Source of the DNA: Chloroflexota bacterium
GTDB taxonomy: Bacteria; Chloroflexota; Anaerolineae; Anaerolineales; Villigracilaceae
Direction: 5' to 3'
NCBI GenBank assembly: GCA_016234495.1
Contig: JACRBI010000047.1
Coordinates: forward strand, 1-64,000
Length of the DNA stretch: 64,000 bases
Within the stretch, counting starts at the first letter, position 1. Each line of letters opens with the position of its first letter. Positions 37,402-51,444 of this stretch are shown here, piece by piece. Position numbers and translations under genes: made by a program. A model generated the notes under the pieces. The model saw nothing but the letters and a program-made list of their open reading frames with translations, made no database searches and was not told the origin of the DNA.

Positions 37402-38079
37402 TCACTGCTGGACCTGGAGCCTGCGCGCCCTTCCCCAAACATTTTCCCAGCTGACGAATAACCCCGCCCCGCACAAAATTAATCCCGCGCCGACCAATGT
37501 CAGTGACGTATTGAAAACGTCGGCATAGTTGACTCCATCCCACGTGTGCGTAGACGCCATGAAATATTGGATGGTGAGAGTCATCACGCCCAGCACGGTC
37601 AGCGCCGCGCCGCCGGCTGGTTTGTTGGATTTCACATCACCTTTTGAAAAATTCACGCCCTGCCAGATGAAGGGAATCTTGAACAGCAGGAAGACCGCCA
37701 GCGTAAGCACGGTCGTGTACACCACCGCATCCACCGGCATAGACTTGCCGCGCAGCATCCGCGACATGTAAATGTGCAGCCCGCCGACCAACATGCCAGC
37801 GATCAAGGCTTGAATGCTCATCAAATACGAATCAGCCGCGCCTTTCACGAGCTTGACGGTTGCCCAAATCCCCCAAATGCCGATTGCAATCCCTGCAAAG
37901 ACAAATAAAATGTACAGCCATTGGAAGGGAGCCAGCGCGGTCATGCTTTCATATTTTGCCGGGAACAAGGCAGCGCAGATCGTGCCGATACCGCCCAGCA
38001 GGGTGAACCCGCCAGTCAGCGCCATCAACACGATGCCGATGAAACGAAGGAACTTTGCGAAGAAACTGTTTGTGGACAT
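37402..38079 (-). CDS. Integral membrane protein of unknown function
   Basis: A 225-residue protein with about six membrane segments (about 12-35, 52-76, 86-110, 120-140, 155-176, 190-210). Histidines lie near membrane ends (GGLHIYMSRM, MASTHTWDG) and could be heme ligands, but no family is recognised. AAGGAG precedes the ATG. It is the last gene of the minus-strand cluster that includes heme O synthase. A terminator hairpin separates it from the gene before it, so it is either read through or has its own promoter. Confidence 0.75.
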   Translation of the reverse strand: MSTNSFFAKFLRFIGIVLMALTGGFTLLGGIGTICAALFPAKYESMTALAPFQWLYILFVFAGIAIGIWGIWATVKLVKGAADSYLMSIQALIAGMLVGGLHIYMSRMLRGKSMPVDAVVYTTVLTLAVFLLFKIPFIWQGVNFSKGDVKSNKPAGGAALTVLGVMTLTIQYFMASTHTWDGVNYADVFNTSLTLVGAGLILCGAGLFVSWENVWGRARRLQVQQ

Positions 38080-38104
38080 TGCACTCTCCTTTTGTAGAAA
38101 AAAA

Positions 38105-38130
38105 GTAGGACGAGATTAATCTCGTCCTAC
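38105..38130 (-). terminator. Terminator within the membrane cluster
   Basis: A 26-base perfect palindrome, GTAGGACGAGATT and its complement, is followed on the minus strand by seven Ts. It overlaps the last codon region of the 38127-38570 gene. Confidence 0.82.
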
Positions 38131-38570
38131 AGGTTGAAACCGTGTTGAATTTTTTGTTGCCTTACTCTAAGCCCGATGCCGCTTAACCTTCCGAACATGA
38201 TGCCGATGATGGCGCACATGATGAAATCTGCTTCGGGGGTGAAGAACGGTATGCGTCCGATGATGAGTTTGGCAATCACCAGCAGCCAGATCAGAAAAAG
38301 ATAGAAGCGGTCAAGTGAGAAGGTCACTGCGCGCAGTTCGTGGTCTGCCTGCATGGGGACCATGAGGCTGAGCAGTAATCCAACCGGGATGAAGGCCGCA
38401 ATGATCAACGCGACCCACTTCCAGTTGAAATAACCGTTTTCGATATCGCGCAGGAAGTAGATGGTGAACAGCGCCGAAAATTGAACGAACAGGAAGGCGC
38501 GCAGCCAGATCTTGAAGCGGCTTTTTTTCATTTCGCCGCGCAGTGATTTGAAGAAGGAGGGGAGGGACAT
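38127..38570 (-). CDS. Small integral membrane protein of unknown function
   Basis: A 147-residue protein with a basic N-terminus (SFFKSLRGEMKKSRFKIWLRAF) and four membrane segments (about 25-45, 52-75, 90-108, 115-132). No catalytic motif or known family is seen. Its position inside the heme-related cluster suggests a small accessory subunit, but that is inference. A palindromic repeat separates it from the 200-residue membrane protein gene upstream. Confidence 0.7.
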   Translation of the reverse strand: MSLPSFFKSLRGEMKKSRFKIWLRAFLFVQFSALFTIYFLRDIENGYFNWKWVALIIAAFIPVGLLLSLMVPMQADHELRAVTFSLDRFYLFLIWLLVIAKLIIGRIPFFTPEADFIMCAIIGIMFGRLSGIGLRVRQQKIQHGFNL

Positions 38571-38582
38571 GGTTACTTTTTC

Positions 38583-38637
38583 TCGTCATGCCGAGGAGGA
38601 GATTGCTTCGCCGCATCACGGCTCGCAATGACGGATG
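38583..38637. repeat. Interspersed palindromic repeat, ATTGCGAG family, copy 2
   Basis: Shares GATTGCTTCxCCGC and GGCTCGCAATGACGGATG with the copy at 986-1087; the left arm here is CGTCATGCCGAGG. Confidence 0.75.
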
Positions 38638-38647
38638 CAATTGGGTT

Positions 38648-39250
38648 TTATCCGAATTTGAATCCTGCCACGAAACAGATCGTCATCAGCAGGAGCAGGA
38701 TGGGCAGGATTTTGAAAATGGTCTCGCGTGATAGGATGGGACGTCCCGCTTTGAGGAAAGAGAGCAAGAGCCCGCCGATACCGATTAATGCGCCTCCGAT
38801 GCCGACGAGCGAAAAGAGCGGCTGAGTCTTTCCTTGAACGGAGAGGATGATGGGTAGCAGGAAAATGGTGAGGCCGGCAATGCCATGCACGATTGCGATC
38901 GTAATTGTTGGAAGCTTGCCCGGCATGGGGAATGAGCGGGTAATGACTATCGCGAAGAATCCGATGATGGCGAAGACCAGATACCAGGTCCCGAAAGATG
39001 CGTGCTGCCAGACCAGTCCAAGTGACAGGGAGAGGGGAATGATCGTTGAGACGATGACCACCACGGGCGAGTCCAGCACATCGAAGCCGAGGATGATGAG
39101 GAGCAGGCCTGCCACGAGCAAAACGCCGAACCCGATGGTGTAGGCGATGATGGGGAGTGCCCCGAAGCCATCTATGCCGACCGCCACCTGGTAGGCGGCA
39201 AGGATGCCGGTAACGAGCAGCAGGGTGCGGTCGAGGGAGGTCATTTTCAT
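38648..39250 (-). CDS. Six-helix membrane protein, paralog A
   Basis: A 200-residue protein with about six membrane segments. GFGVLLVAGLLLIILG, VHGIAGLTIF and VGIGGALIGIGGLLLSF align position by position with the protein at 42843-43448, so the two are paralogs. A membrane histidine in each (VHGIAG and FHGVAG) could bind heme; this is only suggestive. The start at 39250 overlaps the heme O synthase stop by one base (TGATG). A longer frame extends into that gene but is only its shadow. Confidence 0.78.
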   Translation of the reverse strand: MKMTSLDRTLLLVTGILAAYQVAVGIDGFGALPIIAYTIGFGVLLVAGLLLIILGFDVLDSPVVVIVSTIIPLSLSLGLVWQHASFGTWYLVFAIIGFFAIVITRSFPMPGKLPTITIAIVHGIAGLTIFLLPIILSVQGKTQPLFSLVGIGGALIGIGGLLLSFLKAGRPILSRETIFKILPILLLLMTICFVAGFKFG

Positions 39251-40137
39251 CACATCACTTCGATCACAACCAATATCATCGCAGCCAACATGTAAATGGA
39301 TGCGTATTTGAACAAGCCAAAGTTGACGCGCTCGGATGGTTTGAAGGTGATGGCGACAGCCAGCATGAGCAAGCCCGCAGAGAGCACGCCGAGCAAGCGC
39401 AGGAAGCCCCAATCCATGCCGATGCCGTAGCCCGCAATGACCATTGCCAGCGCGGCGAGAACTGATGAAATGGCGATCGTTGCGCGTGTGGCGGCCAACC
39501 CATACGTGGACGGGAAGGTCGGCACACAGGCGGCGGCGTAGTCTTTGGCGAATTTCATGCTGAAGGTGAGCGTGTGAGTTGGAATCCAGAAGAGGATGCC
39601 GAGGGCTAGGGTCAGGCCGATCCAGTCCACGACTCCGAGGCCGAGGGCGCGGCCAGCCAGGATGGGCATGGCGCCGGAGATGCCGCCCCAGACGATGCTC
39701 CACGCGGTGCGGCGTTTGAGCCACATGCTGTAGACGACGACATCGAAGAAGAGTCCCGCGAAGACGATCAGGCCGTAAAGCGCGTCCATCGCGACTGCCC
39801 AGCCTACGCCGACGACGGAGAGAATCAGCCCGACGCGCAGGACTTCATTTTCCGTGACCGCACCGGAGGATGTGGCGCGCTTTTGCGTGCGCCCCATTTT
39901 CGCGTCAATGTCGCGGTCCCACCACATGTTGAGCACGGTGCTGCCCGCGATGGCGAGAAAGAGGCTGCCTGCCAGGCCCAAAATCGTCCCAACATTAAAG
40001 ACGGGGCAGCGCGCACTCATGTAGCCAGCCAGACCCGTTGCGAGAAGCAGGCCAGATTGGAGGGGCTTGGTTAATGACCAATAGAGGCTGATTTTGGATT
40101 TACGATTGTCGATTGACGATTGGGCGGCGGTGGTCAT
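39250..40137 (-). CDS. ctaB: Protoheme IX farnesyltransferase (heme O synthase)
   Basis: A 295-residue UbiA-family prenyltransferase that converts heme b to heme O by adding a farnesyl group, a step required for A- and O-type oxidases. The diphosphate-binding motif is LNMWWDRDIDAKMGRT (N70, D74, D78), and the second loop reads FWIPTHTLTFSMKFAKDYAAA, which favours heme over quinone substrates. About nine membrane segments are present. No heme A synthase or standard oxidase gene is adjacent, which suggests the product serves the divergent subunit-I-like protein at 41131-42606. Confidence 0.93.
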   Translation of the reverse strand: MTTAAQSSIDNRKSKISLYWSLTKPLQSGLLLATGLAGYMSARCPVFNVGTILGLAGSLFLAIAGSTVLNMWWDRDIDAKMGRTQKRATSSGAVTENEVLRVGLILSVVGVGWAVAMDALYGLIVFAGLFFDVVVYSMWLKRRTAWSIVWGGISGAMPILAGRALGLGVVDWIGLTLALGILFWIPTHTLTFSMKFAKDYAAACVPTFPSTYGLAATRATIAISSVLAALAMVIAGYGIGMDWGFLRLLGVLSAGLLMLAVAITFKPSERVNFGLFKYASIYMLAAMILVVIEVM

Positions 40138-40154
40138 GTGGAACTCCTAGGAAA

Positions 40155-40234
40155 GGTATACAAGTAAATATGTAGACAGGCACACAAGTGGCGGCAAGTA
40201 TACCTGTGTACGTGTATACCTGTCTACATGTGTA
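40155..40234. repeat. Period-8 inverted repeat between SUMF1 paralog 3 and ctaB
   Basis: The left arm reads in 8-mers GGTATACA, AGTAAATA, TGTAGACA, GGCACACA. The right arm reads AGTATACC, TGTGTACG, TGTATACC, TGTCTACA, TGTGTATT. The units pair as GTANACA with TGTNTAC. Same unit as 14343-14430. Confidence 0.75.
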
Positions 40235-41134
40235 TTACCTCACACAACGGAAACCAACGCCCGGGCTGAAATACATTGGCGGGGCGCTGTTGCGAACCCA
40301 GAGGCGCAAGTCCATGTCGTAGGTGTCTTTCGAGCCGCCGCGCATGAAGCGGTCACTAAAGCCTTCCATGGTTTGCACGTCGCCGATCCATTGCCAGACG
40401 TTGCCAGCCATGTCGTAGAGCCCAAATGGCGAGGCAGAGTCGACGGTTTGATAACCGTCATAAGTCTGGCCGTTGTAGAAGCCGACTGGACTCGTCCGCG
40501 AGCCGAATGAACTCATATTTTCAAATGGATCACGCGAGGCGTAGAAGTTGGCATTGTTGCGCTCGATCTCCCAACCCCACGGGAAGGGACGCGCATCCGT
40601 GCCGCGGGCGGCTTTCTCCCATTGGATTTCGGACGGGAGACTCGCGTCGTAATATTGACAGTAGCCCCACGCGCCAAACCACGTGACCATCGTCATCGGG
40701 TGATTCTCGTATCCTTCCTGAACCGAGAACTGGCTGCCATCGAATTTGATTCTCTGCGCCGAATCATTGAGCGGGATATACGCCCAGTCGCCGGCTTTGA
40801 TTTCGAGTTCGTGCTTGACGCCGTGGAAGGGATCGCCAGGGTAGTTGCCGACGATGTTATCGCCGTCCACTTTGACGTAACCTTCGGCGAAGGCGGCGTT
40901 GAGGAAGTCTGCGTATTGCTGGGCGGTGACGTCGGTGACCATGACCTCGAAGGCCGGAGTATATTCTTCTTCGTTGAACTGGCCGTAGAAAAATTCACCT
41001 TCGGGCACTTGCGCCCAGGTGGTCGGGTCAATGCCTGTGTCGAAGGTGGGCATCGGAGCGTTCAAATCTACAGGGGCGCACGAGGCTATTAACGCCGCGA
41101 ACAGGACGAGGGTCAGGATGAAGCGGTTTTTCAT
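40235..41134 (-). CDS. SUMF1/FGE-fold lipoprotein, paralog 3
   Basis: A 299-residue lipoprotein with lipobox LIASC (cysteine at about 19) and a SUMF1-fold domain: VPEGEFFYGQF, DVTAQQYADFLN, MVTWFGAWGYCQYYDASLPSEIQWEKAARG, FPWGWE, DMAGNVWQWIGD, MRGGSKD and GVGFRCVR. The catalytic cysteine pair of true formylglycine enzymes is missing. Its ATG overlaps the stop of the heme-copper-like gene (ATGA at 41134-41131), so the two proteins are probably made together and may interact. More distant from paralogs 1 and 2 than they are from each other. Confidence 0.88.
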   Translation of the reverse strand: MKNRFILTLVLFAALIASCAPVDLNAPMPTFDTGIDPTTWAQVPEGEFFYGQFNEEEYTPAFEVMVTDVTAQQYADFLNAAFAEGYVKVDGDNIVGNYPGDPFHGVKHELEIKAGDWAYIPLNDSAQRIKFDGSQFSVQEGYENHPMTMVTWFGAWGYCQYYDASLPSEIQWEKAARGTDARPFPWGWEIERNNANFYASRDPFENMSSFGSRTSPVGFYNGQTYDGYQTVDSASPFGLYDMAGNVWQWIGDVQTMEGFSDRFMRGGSKDTYDMDLRLWVRNSAPPMYFSPGVGFRCVR

Positions 41135-42606
41135 TTCGCCACCTCCTCGGAGAGTTCGTGAGTCATTTCTTCCGTCCAGCGTCCCTTCGGTTTGAAGAGG
41201 TCGGTCAGACGCCAGACCATCACGACAGCGAGCAGGACGAGCAGGAAGCCGAGACCGAAATCAATCATGTACATGAGTGTGTTGACCAGCGGCTGTTGGA
41301 CGGCTTCACCGATGAAGAGGCGTTTCATTTCAAAGACCGTCACCGCGCCGAGGGCGATGTCGGAGAGGAAGATGATGCTCCAGCCGTAGAGTTGGCGGAC
41401 TTTGCCTTTCAGGCCGAGCATGTCGCCGTAATACATCAGGATGATGCTGGCGATGATGGCCGAGAGCGCGTGCCAGTGACCTGTCAGTTCGATGCGCTCT
41501 TCGCGGGCAGGCCACATGCGGAAAATTTCGTCGAGGCGGATGGCCATGAAAATGCCGATGCCGCTGGTCGTGAAGTTCATGAACAGCATTTGCCAGGTGG
41601 GTCCAAATTTGAGCGGGTCGCTGACCATCGCGCCGAGTTTTTGGAAGAAGGTCGGCTTGGCGATATGCGCCGTGCCTTCCTTCGCGAATTTGCCCCAACT
41701 CCAGATGAGCAGGAAGAGCGCCGCCAGCATGGACGGGGTCGCGCCGACGTAGATGATCATGTGCGCCACGGGTTCGAGCGGAGTGACCACGCCCCACACG
41801 CCGAGGTTGAGCACGATACAGCCGAGGATCATCAGCGGCATGGCGACCTTGTGCCACGCGCCTTTGAAGTTCAGCCAGCGTCCGATGATGAGCGTGAGCA
41901 TAATGGCGATCAGCGCCAACATAATGTGCAAGTGACCGATGACCGAATATTCCATCACGGACTTGTGCGGGTAGCGGATGACGTTTTCCGCGAGGAAGGT
42001 CTCGAAGCCGTGACCGTAATACGAGCCAGGTACCGCGCCGAAGAGGGCGGAGATGACAGTCGTCACTGCGGTGACGAAGAAGGCGACGCGCTCCAAGTCA
42101 ACGCCTTTTTTCGTGCGCGCGTAACTTGTGTCGGTGATGTAGTATTCCGAATCCCACGGCCAGAGCGCGATGCACAGCAATACGCCCGCGAAGAAGATCA
42201 GCGAGAGGCCTGTGATGTACAGCCCGTGGAACGCCCAGTTGTGGCCGAAGTACGCGAAGCCCATGCCGAAAATCATCGTCAGGATGTAGCCGACGGTGAT
42301 AAGGACGCGCACGGCCATTTTGTAGAATTCTTTCATCTTCAACAAACTGGTGACCATGTACGTCTCGATGGCGACAACGGCCATGGCAATGGAATGATAC
42401 AAAATGATGATGCGCCCCTCGCGCTCGGCCTGCACGATGTCCATGCCGAGAAGTTTAATCACGATCTCGCGCACGCCCATCTCGGCCATCGGTCCCGAGA
42501 GCATGCCCCACACCGCCGCGACGATTCCGATCATTGCAATCGCCACGAGGATGAGTCCCTTTGTCGAGCCGAAGAGGTAGTTGAAACGGTCTTTAACGAA
42601 TTGCAT
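41131..42606 (-). CDS. Polytopic membrane protein, candidate divergent heme-copper oxidase subunit I
   Basis: A 491-residue protein with about 12 membrane segments. Histidines fall where a heme-copper subunit I needs them: H71 (LYHSIAM, helix II), H225/H227 (IGHLHIML, helix VI), H282 (EPVAHMII, helix VII) and the H-x-H of helix X, H377/H379 (TGHWHAL). The spacings 227-282 and 282-377 are close to those of canonical enzymes. But helix VII has one His instead of His-His, and no cross-linked Tyr motif is obvious, so the metal site would be unusual, as in nitric oxide reductases. CuA or cytochrome c subunits are not nearby. ctaB and a SUMF1-fold lipoprotein follow in the same unit. Function is inferred; it could be an unrelated b-type cytochrome. 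Confidence 0.55.
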   Translation of the reverse strand: MQFVKDRFNYLFGSTKGLILVAIAMIGIVAAVWGMLSGPMAEMGVREIVIKLLGMDIVQAEREGRIIILYHSIAMAVVAIETYMVTSLLKMKEFYKMAVRVLITVGYILTMIFGMGFAYFGHNWAFHGLYITGLSLIFFAGVLLCIALWPWDSEYYITDTSYARTKKGVDLERVAFFVTAVTTVISALFGAVPGSYYGHGFETFLAENVIRYPHKSVMEYSVIGHLHIMLALIAIMLTLIIGRWLNFKGAWHKVAMPLMILGCIVLNLGVWGVVTPLEPVAHMIIYVGATPSMLAALFLLIWSWGKFAKEGTAHIAKPTFFQKLGAMVSDPLKFGPTWQMLFMNFTTSGIGIFMAIRLDEIFRMWPAREERIELTGHWHALSAIIASIILMYYGDMLGLKGKVRQLYGWSIIFLSDIALGAVTVFEMKRLFIGEAVQQPLVNTLMYMIDFGLGFLLVLLAVVMVWRLTDLFKPKGRWTEEMTHELSEEVAK

Positions 42607-42641
42607 AGGAGATACTCCTAAATTAAATTTTCAAACCTGCT

Positions 42642-42676
42642 GAAAAATATCACAAATCAGGCTTGCTGTCTTTGAC
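42642..42676 (-). promoter_or_regulatory. Bipartite motif upstream of the heme-copper-like gene
   Basis: GAAAAATATCACAAA (42642-42656) and TGTCTTTGAC (42667-42676) recur with identical spacing at 48263-48277 and 48288-48297. The first part contains a CRP-type half-site TCACA. Confidence 0.7.
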
Positions 42677-42702
42677 AAAAGACAAATGATTGCAGAAGAA
42701 TC

Positions 42703-42803
42703 ACCACAGAGTTTTTGAACCGCGAAGCACGCAAAGTTCGCTAAGAAATTCCTTATTATTCCTCGCGTTCTTCGCGGTCTTCGCGGTTGATAGTTCTCCG
42801 TGG
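42703..42803. repeat. Interspersed inverted repeat, ACCGCGAAG family
   Basis: ACCACAGAG, ACCGCGAAGCACGCAAAG on the left are mirrored by CGCGTTCTTCGCGGTCTTCGCGGT and CTCCGTGG on the right. It fills most of the gap between the heme-copper-like gene and the 201-residue membrane gene. Confidence 0.75.
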
Positions 42804-42842
42804 CTTGGCGGCTAGAAGACTAGCCGACCAGCGACAAGGTGA

Positions 42843-43448
42843 CTATCCCTTCTTTGCAAATCCCATCGTGAACGCGCCTGTCATCAAGAGGAGCAGGGGC
42901 GTGAGGATCATCATCACAAATTCCGGGCTGAAGAACAGCAATTGCGCGCCGACCGAAATGAAGGCGAGAGCAATACCTCCAAGGCCGATCAACAAGCCGC
43001 CGATGCCAACCCAGTAGAATCCTTTCGGGGCGCCTTTGGCAACGAACGGACCGCCGAAGATCACGAGTCCGGCCACGCCGTGGAAGAGCGGCACAGCGAT
43101 CTTCTTAAGCGTATCCATCCCGCCGATGCTGGTGATGGCGATCGCAAGGAAGCCGATGACCGCGAACCATTTGAAGGCTTTCTTCCAGGCGGGGAAGTAC
43201 TCCTCAGCCAGTCCCATCGAAATGCCGAGCGGGATCAGGCTTGCCACCGTCAGCACATAGGGTGAAGCCAAAATTCCCAGACCGAGGAAGATCAGCAGCA
43301 GCCCTGAAACCAAAAGCACCGCAAAACCCATCAAATAATACAGGTTGTGCAGTGCCTTGTTTTGGCCGTATCTCTGCCAGAAATACCAGCAAAGGTACAC
43401 GGCGAGCAGGCCGGTCAACAGAAGAAACAAATTATCAAGCGTGAACAT
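42843..43448 (-). CDS. Six-helix membrane protein, paralog B
   Basis: A 201-residue paralog of the protein at 38648-39250, with the same helix layout: FAVLLVSGLLLIFLGLG, LFHGVAGLVIF, VGIGGLLIGLGGIALAFI and a final LTPLLLLMTGAFTMGF. A start ATG with AAAGGAG upstream is clear. Two CRP-type sites lie 60 and 92 bases upstream, so it is probably activated or repressed by the Crp/Fnr proteins at 50.1-51.4 kb. Function unknown. Confidence 0.8.
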   Translation of the reverse strand: MFTLDNLFLLLTGLLAVYLCWYFWQRYGQNKALHNLYYLMGFAVLLVSGLLLIFLGLGILASPYVLTVASLIPLGISMGLAEEYFPAWKKAFKWFAVIGFLAIAITSIGGMDTLKKIAVPLFHGVAGLVIFGGPFVAKGAPKGFYWVGIGGLLIGLGGIALAFISVGAQLLFFSPEFVMMILTPLLLLMTGAFTMGFAKKG

Positions 43449-43507
43449 TTTACATTCTCCTTTTTAATTGGTTTGATTTTAACAACCCAAAAGGAAACGA
43501 GTCGTTG

Positions 43508-43523
43508 TGTGAATTATTGCACA
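43508..43523 (-). promoter_or_regulatory. CRP-type site, proximal
   Basis: TGTGA-N6-GCACA, one mismatch from the CRP consensus. Its centre is about 46 bases from the start predicted by a TAAAAT -10 at 43481-43476. Confidence 0.65.
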
Positions 43524-43539
43524 AGAACTGTCAATTTTC

Positions 43540-43555
43540 TGTGACGTATGTCACA
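43540..43555 (-). promoter_or_regulatory. CRP-type site, distal
   Basis: A perfect TGTGA-N6-TCACA palindrome (TGTGACGTATGTCACA), 32 bases upstream of the proximal site. Confidence 0.75.
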
Positions 43556-43641
43556 CTTTCGCTTCACGCCTGATCCTTCAACTTCGCTCAGGACAAGCCT
43601 TGAGCGGGCGCGTGGACCTCTGGCATTTTCCACGCCTGAAC

Positions 43642-43692
43642 CAGTACCGCAAAATTTATCTTGCGAGTGGCAACATAAATGTTGCGGTACTG
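43642..43692. repeat. Palindromic repeat, ACATAAATGT family
   Basis: CAGTACCGCAA and TTGCGGTACTG bound it, and CAACATAAATGTTG is nested inside. A related palindrome lies within the penicillin acylase gene at 45424-45441. The adjacent stretch 43570-43610 holds another common intergenic sequence with CTTCGCTCAGGACAAGC. Confidence 0.75.
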
Positions 43693-43702
43693 AAACTTTC
43701 CG

Positions 43703-44524
43703 CTACGTCGCCGCGTTCCACGCCTCGAGCATTTTCTTTGTGGACGGCAGCAGCAGGTAAATCAGCAACCCCGTGCTCATCAACGGCGCGGGCAGGAACA
43801 TCGAGAAGCGTTGCACTTCTGCCACATTGTGCAGTCCGAGCGGATAGCCCGCCAGCATGGACATGCTCGCCGCGAAGATGCCGACAGGAATCGCCCACGA
43901 TTTCTTTTTCAGCGTGGCGAAGATGAACATCGCCCAGCCTGCCGCGCCCCACCAACTGACCTCTTGCAAGATCACGTACATCCCATTCCAGAACGTGTTC
44001 GCGTTCTCAACGAATGTCGTCGGCGTTTGGAAGGTGGCCTGGAATTTGGAAAAAGGCGCGACACCGTCAATGAAGGTCAGCACGTACGCGAGACCCGCGA
44101 TGAAGGTGAGCGTGATGATCTTGCCGCTCACGCCGCCGACGAAGAGCATCCCAAACCACATCACGCCCGCCAGCATAAACACCCACATCGTCGGGACGGG
44201 CAGCCCGCTGTCCGCGGCGGGGATCATGGGGAAGAATCCCGCCAGCAGGAGGATGGTCGCGGCTACCGCGCCCCAGTGCCAGGCCCAATCCTGCTTGTTT
44301 AGGAAACCCCACAAAACGGCGGCAGAGAGAGCGCCAGCCGCCGTCCCCAGCCAGCCGAGCACCGCGTAGACAATCCGCACAGTGTTGCTCTCTTCCCAAT
44401 CGCCCGCGTTGAAGTGCGTGTGGATGACCGCGTTGTATGTGTCCGCAATGAAATACAGACACAGGATTCCCGCCACGATGCCGAGGACGGAAAGGGCAAG
44501 TCCAAGTTTATGGTTATTTTTCAT
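43703..44524 (-). CDS. Seven- to eight-helix membrane protein of unknown function
   Basis: A 273-residue protein with about eight membrane segments, with Trp-rich loops (DWAWHWGAVAAT, EVSWWGAAGWAMF) and a His in an external loop (VIHTHFNAG). No family is recognised. It has an AAGGAG-poor but plausible GGAGAATACC start. A CRP-type site is centred 48 bases upstream of the ATG, at about -42 from a TACTAT -10 (44541-44536). It is divergent from the penicillin acylase gene. Confidence 0.75.
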   Translation of the reverse strand: MKNNHKLGLALSVLGIVAGILCLYFIADTYNAVIHTHFNAGDWEESNTVRIVYAVLGWLGTAAGALSAAVLWGFLNKQDWAWHWGAVAATILLLAGFFPMIPAADSGLPVPTMWVFMLAGVMWFGMLFVGGVSGKIITLTFIAGLAYVLTFIDGVAPFSKFQATFQTPTTFVENANTFWNGMYVILQEVSWWGAAGWAMFIFATLKKKSWAIPVGIFAASMSMLAGYPLGLHNVAEVQRFSMFLPAPLMSTGLLIYLLLPSTKKMLEAWNAAT

Positions 44525-44564: not shown

Positions 44565-44580
44565 CGTGAAATGTATCACA
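44565..44580. promoter_or_regulatory. CRP-type site between divergent genes
   Basis: CGTGA-N6-TCACA. It is positioned like a class II activator site for the minus-strand membrane gene, and lies about 57 bases before the -35 of the plus-strand acylase promoter. Confidence 0.7.
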
Positions 44581-47197: not shown

Positions 47198-48202
47198 TTA
47201 ATCGCCTTTTTCGATCAGGAATTGCTTGAAGGCGGGGATCAGCAGGATGGCAAGCAGAACTGTGGACAAAAGCCCGCCCTGCAACCATTCGGTGGAGTGG
47301 CGCACGATGAAACCCTGGAAACTGACAACTGCGGTCGCCAGCGCGGTGGATGTGGCAATATACCAGCCCACTTTGTTTTTCATCGCCATCAACGGAATGG
47401 AGACAATCAACAATACGGACGCAATGTACAACATGAAGCCGCCAAGCAACAGCGCCAGAGTCTGCGGACTGTACACGGCATTCTCCGAGACCATCTCAAA
47501 GGTTTGCCAGTTCAGGTGATCCAGGTTGGTGATGTAATGCGCCAGCGGAGTGGTGAACAGCGGCGGGTTGGGGTTGGCGGTGATCAGCCCATTCGCATCG
47601 GTGACAAATTCACCGGGGATGTGAATGAAATAGCGCACGCCGTGTTGCCCGTTCATGAAGACCATGCCCGAAACGACGCCAAGCGCCGTGAAGGGGACGA
47701 GTTTCATAATTTTATTCTTGAGCGTGTCCTGGTCTGCGAACAGGATAACGAAGTAGAACAACAGTCCCAGCAAAATGATGGGCATGGCAGGCGGCATCCC
47801 GTTGATCGTGTGCGTGGGGACGCCCTTTTCGGGATACTCAGCCAATACCAGCACGAACCAGGGGATCATCATGGTCATCCCCGCGACGGATGGGATGGCA
47901 AATAACCCGAGGGCGGCGGCGCGCGCCCACTTAACCCCGTCGTAGATCTTCTTTGACAATACCAACAGCACGGCTCCCGCCAGCACGAAGGCGATGATCC
48001 ATGCCGAGAACGTGGTCGAGAGGACGGGGACGGCGGGATAGAAATCCGCGTCGTGTGGCACGAGGCGCAACATCACCTGATCGAGCGCGATCTTCAGGGT
48101 CTGCATCGCCTGGGTGGGCGCCAGCAACATCAGGTACAAGCCGCCGATAACTGCGACAATCGTCATGACGATTCGTCCTGTTCTGGTGGTTTCGTTTGTC
48201 AT
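47198..48202 (-). CDS. Polytopic membrane protein of unknown function
   Basis: A 334-residue protein with about eight membrane segments, a long extracytoplasmic loop (about 180-240, with HGVRYFIHIPGEF and LDHLNWQTF) and several histidines. No family is recognised. The start at 48202 is chosen since TGAGGAG lies upstream; the longer frame to 48316 would overrun the promoter motifs. It shares a bipartite upstream motif with the heme-copper-like gene, which suggests co-regulation. Confidence 0.78.
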   Translation of the reverse strand: MTNETTRTGRIVMTIVAVIGGLYLMLLAPTQAMQTLKIALDQVMLRLVPHDADFYPAVPVLSTTFSAWIIAFVLAGAVLLVLSKKIYDGVKWARAAALGLFAIPSVAGMTMMIPWFVLVLAEYPEKGVPTHTINGMPPAMPIILLGLLFYFVILFADQDTLKNKIMKLVPFTALGVVSGMVFMNGQHGVRYFIHIPGEFVTDANGLITANPNPPLFTTPLAHYITNLDHLNWQTFEMVSENAVYSPQTLALLLGGFMLYIASVLLIVSIPLMAMKNKVGWYIATSTALATAVVSFQGFIVRHSTEWLQGGLLSTVLLAILLIPAFKQFLIEKGD

Positions 48203-48257: not shown

Positions 48258-48297
48258 TGTGAGAAAAATATCACAAACAAAGATTCTTGTCTTTGAC
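48258..48297 (-). promoter_or_regulatory. CRP-like palindrome and bipartite motif
   Basis: TGTGA-N8-TCACA (48258-48275) overlaps the block GAAAAATATCACAAA, and TGTCTTTGAC follows at 48288-48297. The spacer is two bases longer than a standard CRP site. The second copy of the block is at 42642-42676. Confidence 0.7.
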
Positions 48298-50080: not shown

Positions 50081-50770
50081 ATGAACGACATGCAAACCGT
50101 CCTCAACTGTCTCTCCCGCGCACCCGTATTCGAAAAACTGTCAGACGCAGACCGCGCCGAACTGGTCGGCTGCGCCAGCCGCAAGGTCCACGAAAGAGGC
50201 GGATACATCTGCTGGCAGGGCGAGCCGTGGCCGAACGTCGCCTACATTGCATCCGGTCAGGTTGAGTGGGTGATGGTTTCACCCGAAGGCAAACGGCAGG
50301 TGGTGTTCAAACTTGGCGCGTGCGATGTGGTTTGGGGGCACACCATTTTCGATGACCAGCCCATGCCCGCCTCGCTTGAAGTGACCCAGCGCGCAGAACT
50401 ATTGCTCTGGCCGCGCGAAGTGGTTGTGCCCATTGTTTCGCGCAACCCGCAGGCGGTGTGGGAGACCGGGCGCGTGCTCGTCAATTACATGCGCCATGTG
50501 CGTGAACTGGTTTACGGGTTTGCATTCCACCCCGTCGCGGGGCGGCTGGCACGATTACTGTTGACTCATTACCAGCATGGGGATGGCGACTCTGCTCCGC
50601 GCGACCTGACCCTCGACCAGATGGCCGACTCGATCGGGACGACCCGTGAACTGGTCAGCCGCACGCTGCATCGCTTCGCCGACGAGGGACTCATCCGCGT
50701 CAACCGCGTGGAACTGGCTTTTCTGGACCGCGAGAAACTTGAATCTCTGGCGGGAGGTAATGATAGATGA
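50081..50770 (+). CDS. Crp/Fnr-family transcriptional regulator 1
   Basis: A 229-residue regulator with a cyclic-nucleotide-binding-like sensor (about 12-125: GGYICWQGEPWPNVAYIASGQVEWV) and a C-terminal helix-turn-helix (about 150-225: LTLDQMADSIGTTRELVSRTL). There are no Cys clusters of the FNR type, so it is not an Fe-S oxygen sensor. The typical cAMP-binding RxxAA site is not evident. It overlaps the next Crp/Fnr gene by four bases (ATGA). Together they are the nearest readers for the CRP-type sites at 43.5-48.3 kb. Confidence 0.92.
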   Translation: MNDMQTVLNCLSRAPVFEKLSDADRAELVGCASRKVHERGGYICWQGEPWPNVAYIASGQVEWVMVSPEGKRQVVFKLGACDVVWGHTIFDDQPMPASLEVTQRAELLLWPREVVVPIVSRNPQAVWETGRVLVNYMRHVRELVYGFAFHPVAGRLARLLLTHYQHGDGDSAPRDLTLDQMADSIGTTRELVSRTLHRFADEGLIRVNRVELAFLDREKLESLAGGNDR

Positions 50771-51444
50771 CCGCTCTTGCAGCCCTGCTCAAAAAAAATC
50801 CCATCTTCTCCTTTCTCGCTGACAACGATTTGGATTTGATGTCCCGTCAGGCAGCCACGCGTCAATACGATAAAAATGAAAACGTAATTCTCTACGGCGA
50901 TCTCTGGCCGTATCTTTTTCTGGTGGGGCAGGGCAGCGTGGACGCGGTCAAAGAATCAGGCGAGGGACGCAGCCTGCTCGTGACAACATTTTCGCAGGGC
51001 GATATTTTCTGGGGATTGGCATTCTTTCAGGATAACGCGCCGATGCCCGTCACGCTCGAAGCGCGCGAATCCAGCCGCCTGTATTTATGGCCGCGCGAAA
51101 CGATGATCCCCATATTTGAACGCAATGGGCGCGCAGGCTGGGAGTTGAGCCGCTTCATGGCGGGACGAATGCAGCGCGCCAGCGCCATCCTCGAAGAAAT
51201 GACCTTCCAGCCTGTGGCGGGCCGGCTGGCACACCTCCTGCTCGATCACTTTGAAATGGCAGGCGATGCAGCCATCTCGCGTCATTTGACTCTCGATGAA
51301 ATGGCGGCGCGCATCGGCTCGACCCGTGAAATGGTCTGCCGCGCACTGTACAGTTTTTCAGACAAAAAATTGATCGAAGTCACGCGCACCGAATTTGTGT
51401 TGACGAATCGCGGGGGGTTGTCTCAACTCGCGGAACACAGTTGA
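50767..51444 (+). CDS. Crp/Fnr-family transcriptional regulator 2
   Basis: A 225-residue paralog of the preceding protein: sensor domain (NVILYGDLWPYLFLVGQGSVDAV, GDIFWGLAFFQDNAPMPVTLEA) and helix-turn-helix (LTLDEMAARIGSTREMVCRALYSF). Both lack FNR-type Cys clusters and share WPREE/T and EL.R motifs, which points to duplication. A heme-based gas sensor (Dnr- or CooA-like) would fit the heme-related targets, but no ligand residue proves it. Coupled to the first gene by the ATGA overlap. Confidence 0.92.
   Translation: MTALAALLKKNPIFSFLADNDLDLMSRQAATRQYDKNENVILYGDLWPYLFLVGQGSVDAVKESGEGRSLLVTTFSQGDIFWGLAFFQDNAPMPVTLEARESSRLYLWPRETMIPIFERNGRAGWELSRFMAGRMQRASAILEEMTFQPVAGRLAHLLLDHFEMAGDAAISRHLTLDEMAARIGSTREMVCRALYSFSDKKLIEVTRTEFVLTNRGGLSQLAEHS

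Follow-up and report, generated by a model that had tools for sequence, protein, structure and literature searches.

What is the polytopic protein encoded in a compact gene cluster of a Chloroflexota genome, and does it act on oxygen or on nitric oxide (NO)? The cluster occupies positions 37402-44524, minus strand, of a 64,000 nt window (the whole stretch of DNA analyzed, whose positions serve as coordinates here) of contig JACRBI010000047.1, assembly GCA_016234495.1, from a Chloroflexota bacterium with a genome, G000, of 4.1 Mb in 57 contigs. It comprises, in order, memE, memD, a protein of 491 residues (41131-42606), a SUMF1-fold lipoprotein, a heme O synthase, memC, memB and memA. A preliminary description of this DNA had taken the 491-residue protein for a heme-copper-like subunit I, belonging to an unusual terminal oxidase or NO reductase. 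The predicted fold and the heme ligands make its assignment, by architecture, to subunit I of the heme-copper superfamily well supported, while we give an even chance to the further proposal that it represents subunit I in a new and highly divergent family acting on NO, an activity that we infer from gene neighbors, co-occurrence and regulation. The protein is probably not a terminal O2 reductase.

The fold was approached through an AlphaFold2 model built on an alignment of 33 family members, with a predicted local distance difference test score of 77.8 and a predicted template modeling score of 0.83, showing twelve long helices and weak stretches at residues 192-213 and 360-368. All 50 of the 50 entries listed by VIA-align are, by title, heme-copper oxidases or NO reductases, with Z values of 17.4-21.0. 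The best is cbb3 CcoN (Z 21.0, root-mean-square deviation 4.2, 402 residues aligned), and other values are ∼18.8 for aa3 and ba3, 17.9 for bo3 and 17.6 for cNOR. Unrelated helical bundles can reach Z values of ∼13 in such comparisons, a level that the present values exceed, and the alignments span most of the chain. A Foldseek search against a viral library gave nothing at E ≤ 0.001.

The histidines expected of a subunit I are found at H71 in helix II, in helix VI (H225-L-H227-I-M229), in the turn between helices VII and VIII (A281-H282) and in helix X (H377-W-H379), so that the His residues expected as ligands of two hemes, one in helix II and the H-x-H of helix X, are present. We have gauged their conservation in 104 relatives (96 distinct sequences, all Chloroflexota), counting those rows that cover the column in question. 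H71 and H127 are invariant (89/89), as are H225, L226, H227, M229, A281 and H282 (90/90) and H377, W378 and H379 (93/93), and the histidine pattern of the preliminary description thereby stands, together with its heme-copper assignment. Because the expected histidines are invariant while six others (H122, H199, H214, H252, H314 and H483) vary among relatives, the pattern is not a matter of chance; H127 and H227 are as invariant as the expected ligands. The claim of a lone histidine in helix VII holds as to number and is refined as to place, with the model placing H282 among the first residues of the eighth helix (278-311), and the joint alignment described below matching it to the turn that carries the His-His pair in other oxidases.

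The residue at helix VI +4 is Met (M229) in all 90 rows, at the position of the Tyr of oxygen reductases. The site six residues ahead of H282, which we take to be the place of the cbb3 Tyr, does not carry Tyr either. On our reading of the alignment the Met would fall at the position of the active-site residue that table A4 of PMC8756737 gives as Tyr in oxygen reductases, Glu in cNOR and qNOR, Gln in eNOR, Asn in sNOR and Asp in gNOR. None of these five residues occurs at helix VI +4, and the diagnostic residue thus fails for every named family tried. Judged from the residues, the protein retains the expected heme ligands, and its metal-B site departs from the usual one in a manner shared with no named family found.

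Placing these residues beside those of known oxidases depends on the alignment used. A joint alignment with twelve oxidases brings all five expected ligands into register, and it alone does so. In runs against single oxidases aa3 places four of the five, a six-cox group three (H282, H377 and H379) and ba3 two (H377 and H379, the partner of H282 not being its His-His pair), and FixN, NorB, eNOR and the gNOR-like protein are out of register. HHalign scores against single oxidases are 16.6-30.3. Among the controls, ten other membrane proteins, some of which may be remotely related, score 15.1-20.7, and four oxidases in reversed sequence score 12.5-22.1.

The family is readily found around the source organism. 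A scan of 84,980 species, which reaches close relatives, yielded 73 loci, the closest labeled Chloroflexi or Anaerolineales, and profile searches were made within Chloroflexota, one of them on a single genome. The gene is present in 43 of 101 related genomes, in 13 of the 48 genomes of the order of G282 and in 17 of 400 genomes sampled across the phylum, the last count leaving out four short weak matches (E 0.005-0.18). In a tree of 86 rows, each longer than 400 residues, a second clade (L112, L113 and L178-L184) stands apart from the rest with support 100/100, in a tree whose bootstrap had not converged completely and in which the branch of L112 is long. The COX1 profile (PF00115) does not match the 491-residue protein at E ≤ 1, nor at E ≤ 10 in a search of the genome, where it matches three other places, and two clade 2 homologs likewise give no match. 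Three homologs carry one in-frame stop codon each (G090:C28:2685-4139, G497:C3:5949-7298 and G496:C473:1926-3242) and may be pseudogenes or sequence faults.

The gene does not travel alone. Clade 1 was counted over 73 loci of differing length, and in 68 of them a SUMF1 gene lies directly downstream of the oxidase homolog; the remaining five loci end at the oxidase gene or within 69 bases of it, L067 among them having SUMF1 further on, in broken sequence. A CtaB gene follows within 2.5 kb in 63 of the 73. Of the ten loci without a nearby CtaB, nine extend less than 0.9 kb beyond the oxidase gene, L038 having a CtaB elsewhere in the locus, and in L016 the absence is genuine. Oxidase, SUMF1-fold lipoprotein and heme O synthase are hence a core conserved across loci, as the check on related genomes suggested in the preliminary description had asked. 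In the window the 491-residue gene is coupled by an ATGA overlap to the lipoprotein gene (40235-41134, minus strand), whose product matches PF03781, the FGE-sulfatase domain, at 2.6e-32. Across 68 lipoprotein sequences C19, C159 and C297 are the sole cysteines conserved in at least 90%, and the catalytic Cys pair of formylglycine-generating enzyme, at the position where we presume it to fall, is absent. The heme O synthase of the cluster (39250-40137, minus strand), of the CtaB/CyoE family, passes TIGR01473 only just, at 211.7 bits against a cut-off of 210.3, and is the second copy of the genome. Because the other, stronger CtaB (304 bits) lies on contig C18, which also holds an aa3 oxidase, and the genome has one CtaA, the cluster copy looks dedicated. 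Neither CxxCH nor a rough CuA pattern occurs in the nine proteins scanned (the eight of the cluster and mem_372), and the gene arrangement originally described, with its coupled lipoprotein, downstream heme O synthase, five surrounding membrane-type proteins and no CuA subunit or cytochrome c, is confirmed throughout.

In order to place the family with respect to NO metabolism we have compared 67 relatives of at least 90% completeness, 34 with the family and 33 without, in tests that ignore kinship. Matches to COX1 of 212-223 bits in frames of 575-598 residues were classed as eNOR-like, by score except for the G000 protein, which was read; other COX1 matches were left unclassed. Such matches occur in 21 of the 34 genomes with the family versus 2 of the 33 without (p 1.3e-6), and NirS in 14 versus 2 (p 0.001). 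G000 itself carries NirS, an eNOR-like oxidase (helix VI GHPAQQ) and oxidases of aa3 and ba3 type, and gives no NirK match at E ≤ 1e-30. A role in N2O respiration was considered and rejected, NosZ being above its cut-off in 4 of the 67 relatives, one of them with the family.

The neighborhoods of clade 2, taken over 11 loci of differing length (L118, L119, L178-L185 and L189), also carry genes linked to NO. A DUF438-hemerythrin-PAS protein is nearby in nine of them and a gNOR-like oxidase in four, with fragments of one in L179 and a cupredoxin partner in three; an NDH2-like gene occurs in three loci and CtaB in one, and L180 has none of the neighbors listed. The gNOR-like oxidase at L119:10316-12379 (minus strand), separated by 111 bases from the family homolog, is a clear COX1 member (221 bits) with, by eye, DMVAD in helix VI, placing Asp where the His would be, and the adjoining cupredoxin subunit II has, again by eye, lost its CuA cysteines. 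L118 has a flavodiiron protein whose best matches, at scores under the model cut-offs, are NO-reductase flavorubredoxin models; its gene stops 11 bases short of the homolog, with DUF438-hemerythrin-PAS just upstream.

Regulation provides a third line of evidence. The window holds six TGTGA-N6-TCACA sites with at most one mismatch, versus 1.73 expected, a number reached in none of 100 shuffles. Four are inside cluster genes or immediately ahead of them, a perfect one upstream of memD at 43540-43555 (found at the same place in relatives) and three with one mismatch, upstream of memD (43508-43523), memE (44565-44580) and ctaB (40229-40244). The fifth, also with one mismatch (48260-48275), is upstream of the likely ATG of mem_372 and inside a longer GTG-started frame. 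Over 68 loci, which are related and thus not independent (five of the 73, where the match starts inside the gene, were left out), the 1 kb upstream of the oxidase gene contains 60 sites, or 0.91 per kb. The region between -4.5 and +5 kb contains 88 in all, versus 14-16 in Markov sequence, while 516 kb outside these regions hold 17 (0.033 per kb), and perfect sites number 24 inside and 1 outside. A site is found within 1.2 kb upstream in 42 of the 68 loci and none in 26. PMC1274295 gives the HcpR motif of Desulfovibrio as wTGTGAnnnnnnTCACAw and notes its resemblance to the CRP consensus, so that the sites may serve either kind of regulator; the same paper ties an Arg-Glu pair of the recognition helix to such sites. 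Two tandem CRP/FNR-family genes at 50081-51444 (plus strand) are candidate regulators of the cluster, with recognition helices TRELVSR and TREMVCR in which, by eye, the Arg-Glu pair is kept, and their products are 25-26% identical to a CRP/FNR protein beside the cluster of a relative. CRP/FNR-family matches occur in 46 of the 73 loci, on either strand, at varying distance and with 20-100% identity. A CRP/FNR-type regulator probably controls the operon.

Taken at face value, the ligands suggest a mechanism in which a low-spin heme would be ligated by H71 and H379, and H377 would bind a high-spin heme, of b or o type, heme o being possible because a heme O synthase is linked. Above the high-spin heme, H225 and H282 would coordinate a second metal together with a residue other than the usual second His, perhaps M229, H227 or H127. 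Since the Tyr position is Met and the neighbors are NO genes, the protein would most likely bind and reduce NO (2 NO to N2O), or else scavenge it, close to the outward-facing side of the membrane, and we lean to reduction over scavenging or sensing because the ligand set and the heme O synthase are kept. Electrons might come from quinol or a small carrier, given that neither a CuA nor a heme-c subunit is encoded in the window cluster, and the lipoprotein, lacking the Cys pair of formylglycine-generating enzyme, is probably a structural partner outside the membrane.

Several observations weigh against assigning the protein to a heme-copper family that acts on NO. It has no useful Pfam, NCBIfam or PDB sequence match, so that the profile search proposed at the outset came back empty and it was structure prediction that supplied the 12-helix heme-copper fold; Foldseek finds no PDB chain at E ≤ 0.001 for the model, the top eleven rows, all above that value, being ten of T. 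thermophilus ba3 and one lipid flippase. Sequence similarity to known oxidases is at noise level, the HHalign comparison of the joint alignment giving E 0.018 and a probability of 2.5%. The usual metal-B set of three histidines, one in helix VI and a His-His pair after helix VII, is replaced by A281-H282 and two histidines in helix VI, leaving absent one ligand found in all classical oxidases; some accepted heme-copper families also vary at the metal-B histidines. The genomic links are weaker within the genus (eNOR-like 20/28 versus 2/9, p 0.017; NirS 10/28 versus 0/9, p 0.08), 13 of the 34 family-bearing genomes have no eNOR-like match and 20 no NirS, and there is no association with NirK (22/34 versus 14/33, p 0.09) or NosZ (1/34 versus 3/33). 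Finally, the site motif also fits plain CRP.

How then does an enzyme acting on NO compare with the alternatives? With cNOR NorB and qNOR the protein shares the fold, a similar size and an NO-linked setting, and it differs in having Met in place of Glu at helix VI +4, a single His after helix VII and no NorC. The alternative families eNOR, gNOR and sNOR are defined by this same helix VI position in PMC8756737, and an eNOR-like gene is often in the same genome as the family and, in clade 2, a gNOR-like gene adjoins it in some loci; here Met stands against Gln, Asp or Asn, and the two eNOR- and gNOR-like proteins examined match PF00115, unlike the 491-residue family. The literature searched, which covers work on NO reductase diversity incompletely, contained no description of the protein that we recognized. 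CuM of the copper monooxygenases is a His2-Met copper site, and by analogy the protein could represent an NO-handling class with a CuM-like second metal site (H225, H282 and M229) above heme o, engaged in NO reduction, dismutation or storage, a reading we regard as tentative, at perhaps one chance in four. A non-catalytic heme-copper paralogue that works alongside true NO reductases to sense or scavenge NO (or O2), or as a protective heme protein, in a role like that of NnrS, seems to us just as speculative. The eNOR-like oxidase already in G000, the reduced metal-B set and the clade 2 neighbors, which include the hemerythrin-PAS protein and once the flavodiiron protein, speak for such a paralogue; all five expected heme and metal histidines are nevertheless kept and a dedicated heme O synthase adjoins, and sensors usually need less. 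NnrS, which contains heme and copper, is likewise a polytopic membrane protein tied to NO, but PF05940 is absent among the Pfam matches of the 491-residue protein at E ≤ 1, and comparison with two pSymA proteins, which we take to be NnrS, is at control level.

The oxygen side of the preliminary description has been weakened and its NO side strengthened. An unusual terminal oxygen reductase resembling a bo-type quinol oxidase would account for the heme O synthase in the operon and for a best fold match to cbb3, to which the joint alignment adds His of helices II, VI and X in register with CcoN/FixN. The family departs from cbb3, however, in having Ala-His after helix VII, H-L-H-x-M in helix VI and no Tyr at the cbb3 place, and the cluster has no CcoO/CcoP-type heme-c subunit; O2 reduction is disfavored since the Tyr is missing, and the genome already has its aa3 and ba3 type oxidases and the neighbors are NO-related, making this alternative improbable. 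Marginally less probable still is an electron-transfer partner that oxidizes quinol and passes electrons to a true NO reductase of gNOR or eNOR type. The L119 arrangement, with a gNOR-like gene whose subunit II has no CuA cysteines so close to the homolog, suggests such a partnership, yet the clade 1 operon has no other oxidase, holding SUMF1 and CtaB instead, and the 13 genomes counted above bear the family with no eNOR-like match. An enzyme that acts on NO is the reading that we prefer.

The remaining membrane-type genes of the cluster, all on the minus strand, are conserved to differing degrees: memE (43703-44524) is present in 44 of the 73 loci, memB (38127-38570) in 18 and memA (37402-38079) in 47. 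Sequences similar to memD (42843-43448) and to its paralogue memC (38648-39250), whose start is read at the ctaB stop, occur in 59 loci each, counts that are in part cross-matches between the two. MemE has no conserved His, and its model gives no fold match in the PDB at E ≤ 0.001. The membrane protein mem_372 (47198-48202, minus strand) has relatives within the cluster in some other genomes. Genes for a divIVA-like protein, coaD and recG adjoin the cluster in the window and in L052, L008, L021, L061, L069 and L072, a kept position that points to vertical inheritance within part of the clade.

Further genes accompany the cluster in other genomes. A small lipoprotein ending in CASCH, with one heme-c motif near the C-terminus and no Pfam match, lies upstream in 7 of the 73 loci as well as in L186 (11219-11644, minus strand) and L187 (5798-6226, plus strand), there upstream of memE-like and oxidase genes, and on its sequence is a candidate electron donor in some members; the window does not contain it. 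Tandem membrane proteins of 132 and 138 residues at L158:9362-10177 (minus strand) are heme-copper-like at a quarter of the size, each showing similarity to COX1 over its initial 113 positions at scores below the cut-off (E 2e-7 and 1e-5). They are upstream of the cluster in 5 of the 73 loci, with relatives in L004, L008, L017, L046 and L061. A 405-residue membrane protein (L157:6110-7327, plus strand) with a weak NnrS match (PF05940, 4e-4, below the cut-off) and weak COX1 similarity is found in seven loci, and its G000 relative (L192:2697-3638) adjoins a CRP/FNR gene. A NapH-like 4Fe-4S membrane protein (L158:10269-11090, minus strand; PF12801) is near the cluster in eight loci, and a duplicated lipoprotein with no Pfam match (L158:12297-13835, minus strand) is upstream in two.

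Heme-copper enzymes govern both O2 use and N2O formation. Surveys of NO reductases rely on profiles or reference sequences taken from families already known (PMC12569097 and PMC10359470), and a conserved family missed by the COX1 profile, as abundant among related genomes as this one, would be absent from such inventories. If the His2-Met reading is true, the series of active-site residues Y/E/Q/N/D gains M. With one metal-B His naturally lost and Met at the diagnostic position, the family lends itself to testing what NO and O2 chemistry require of the superfamily.

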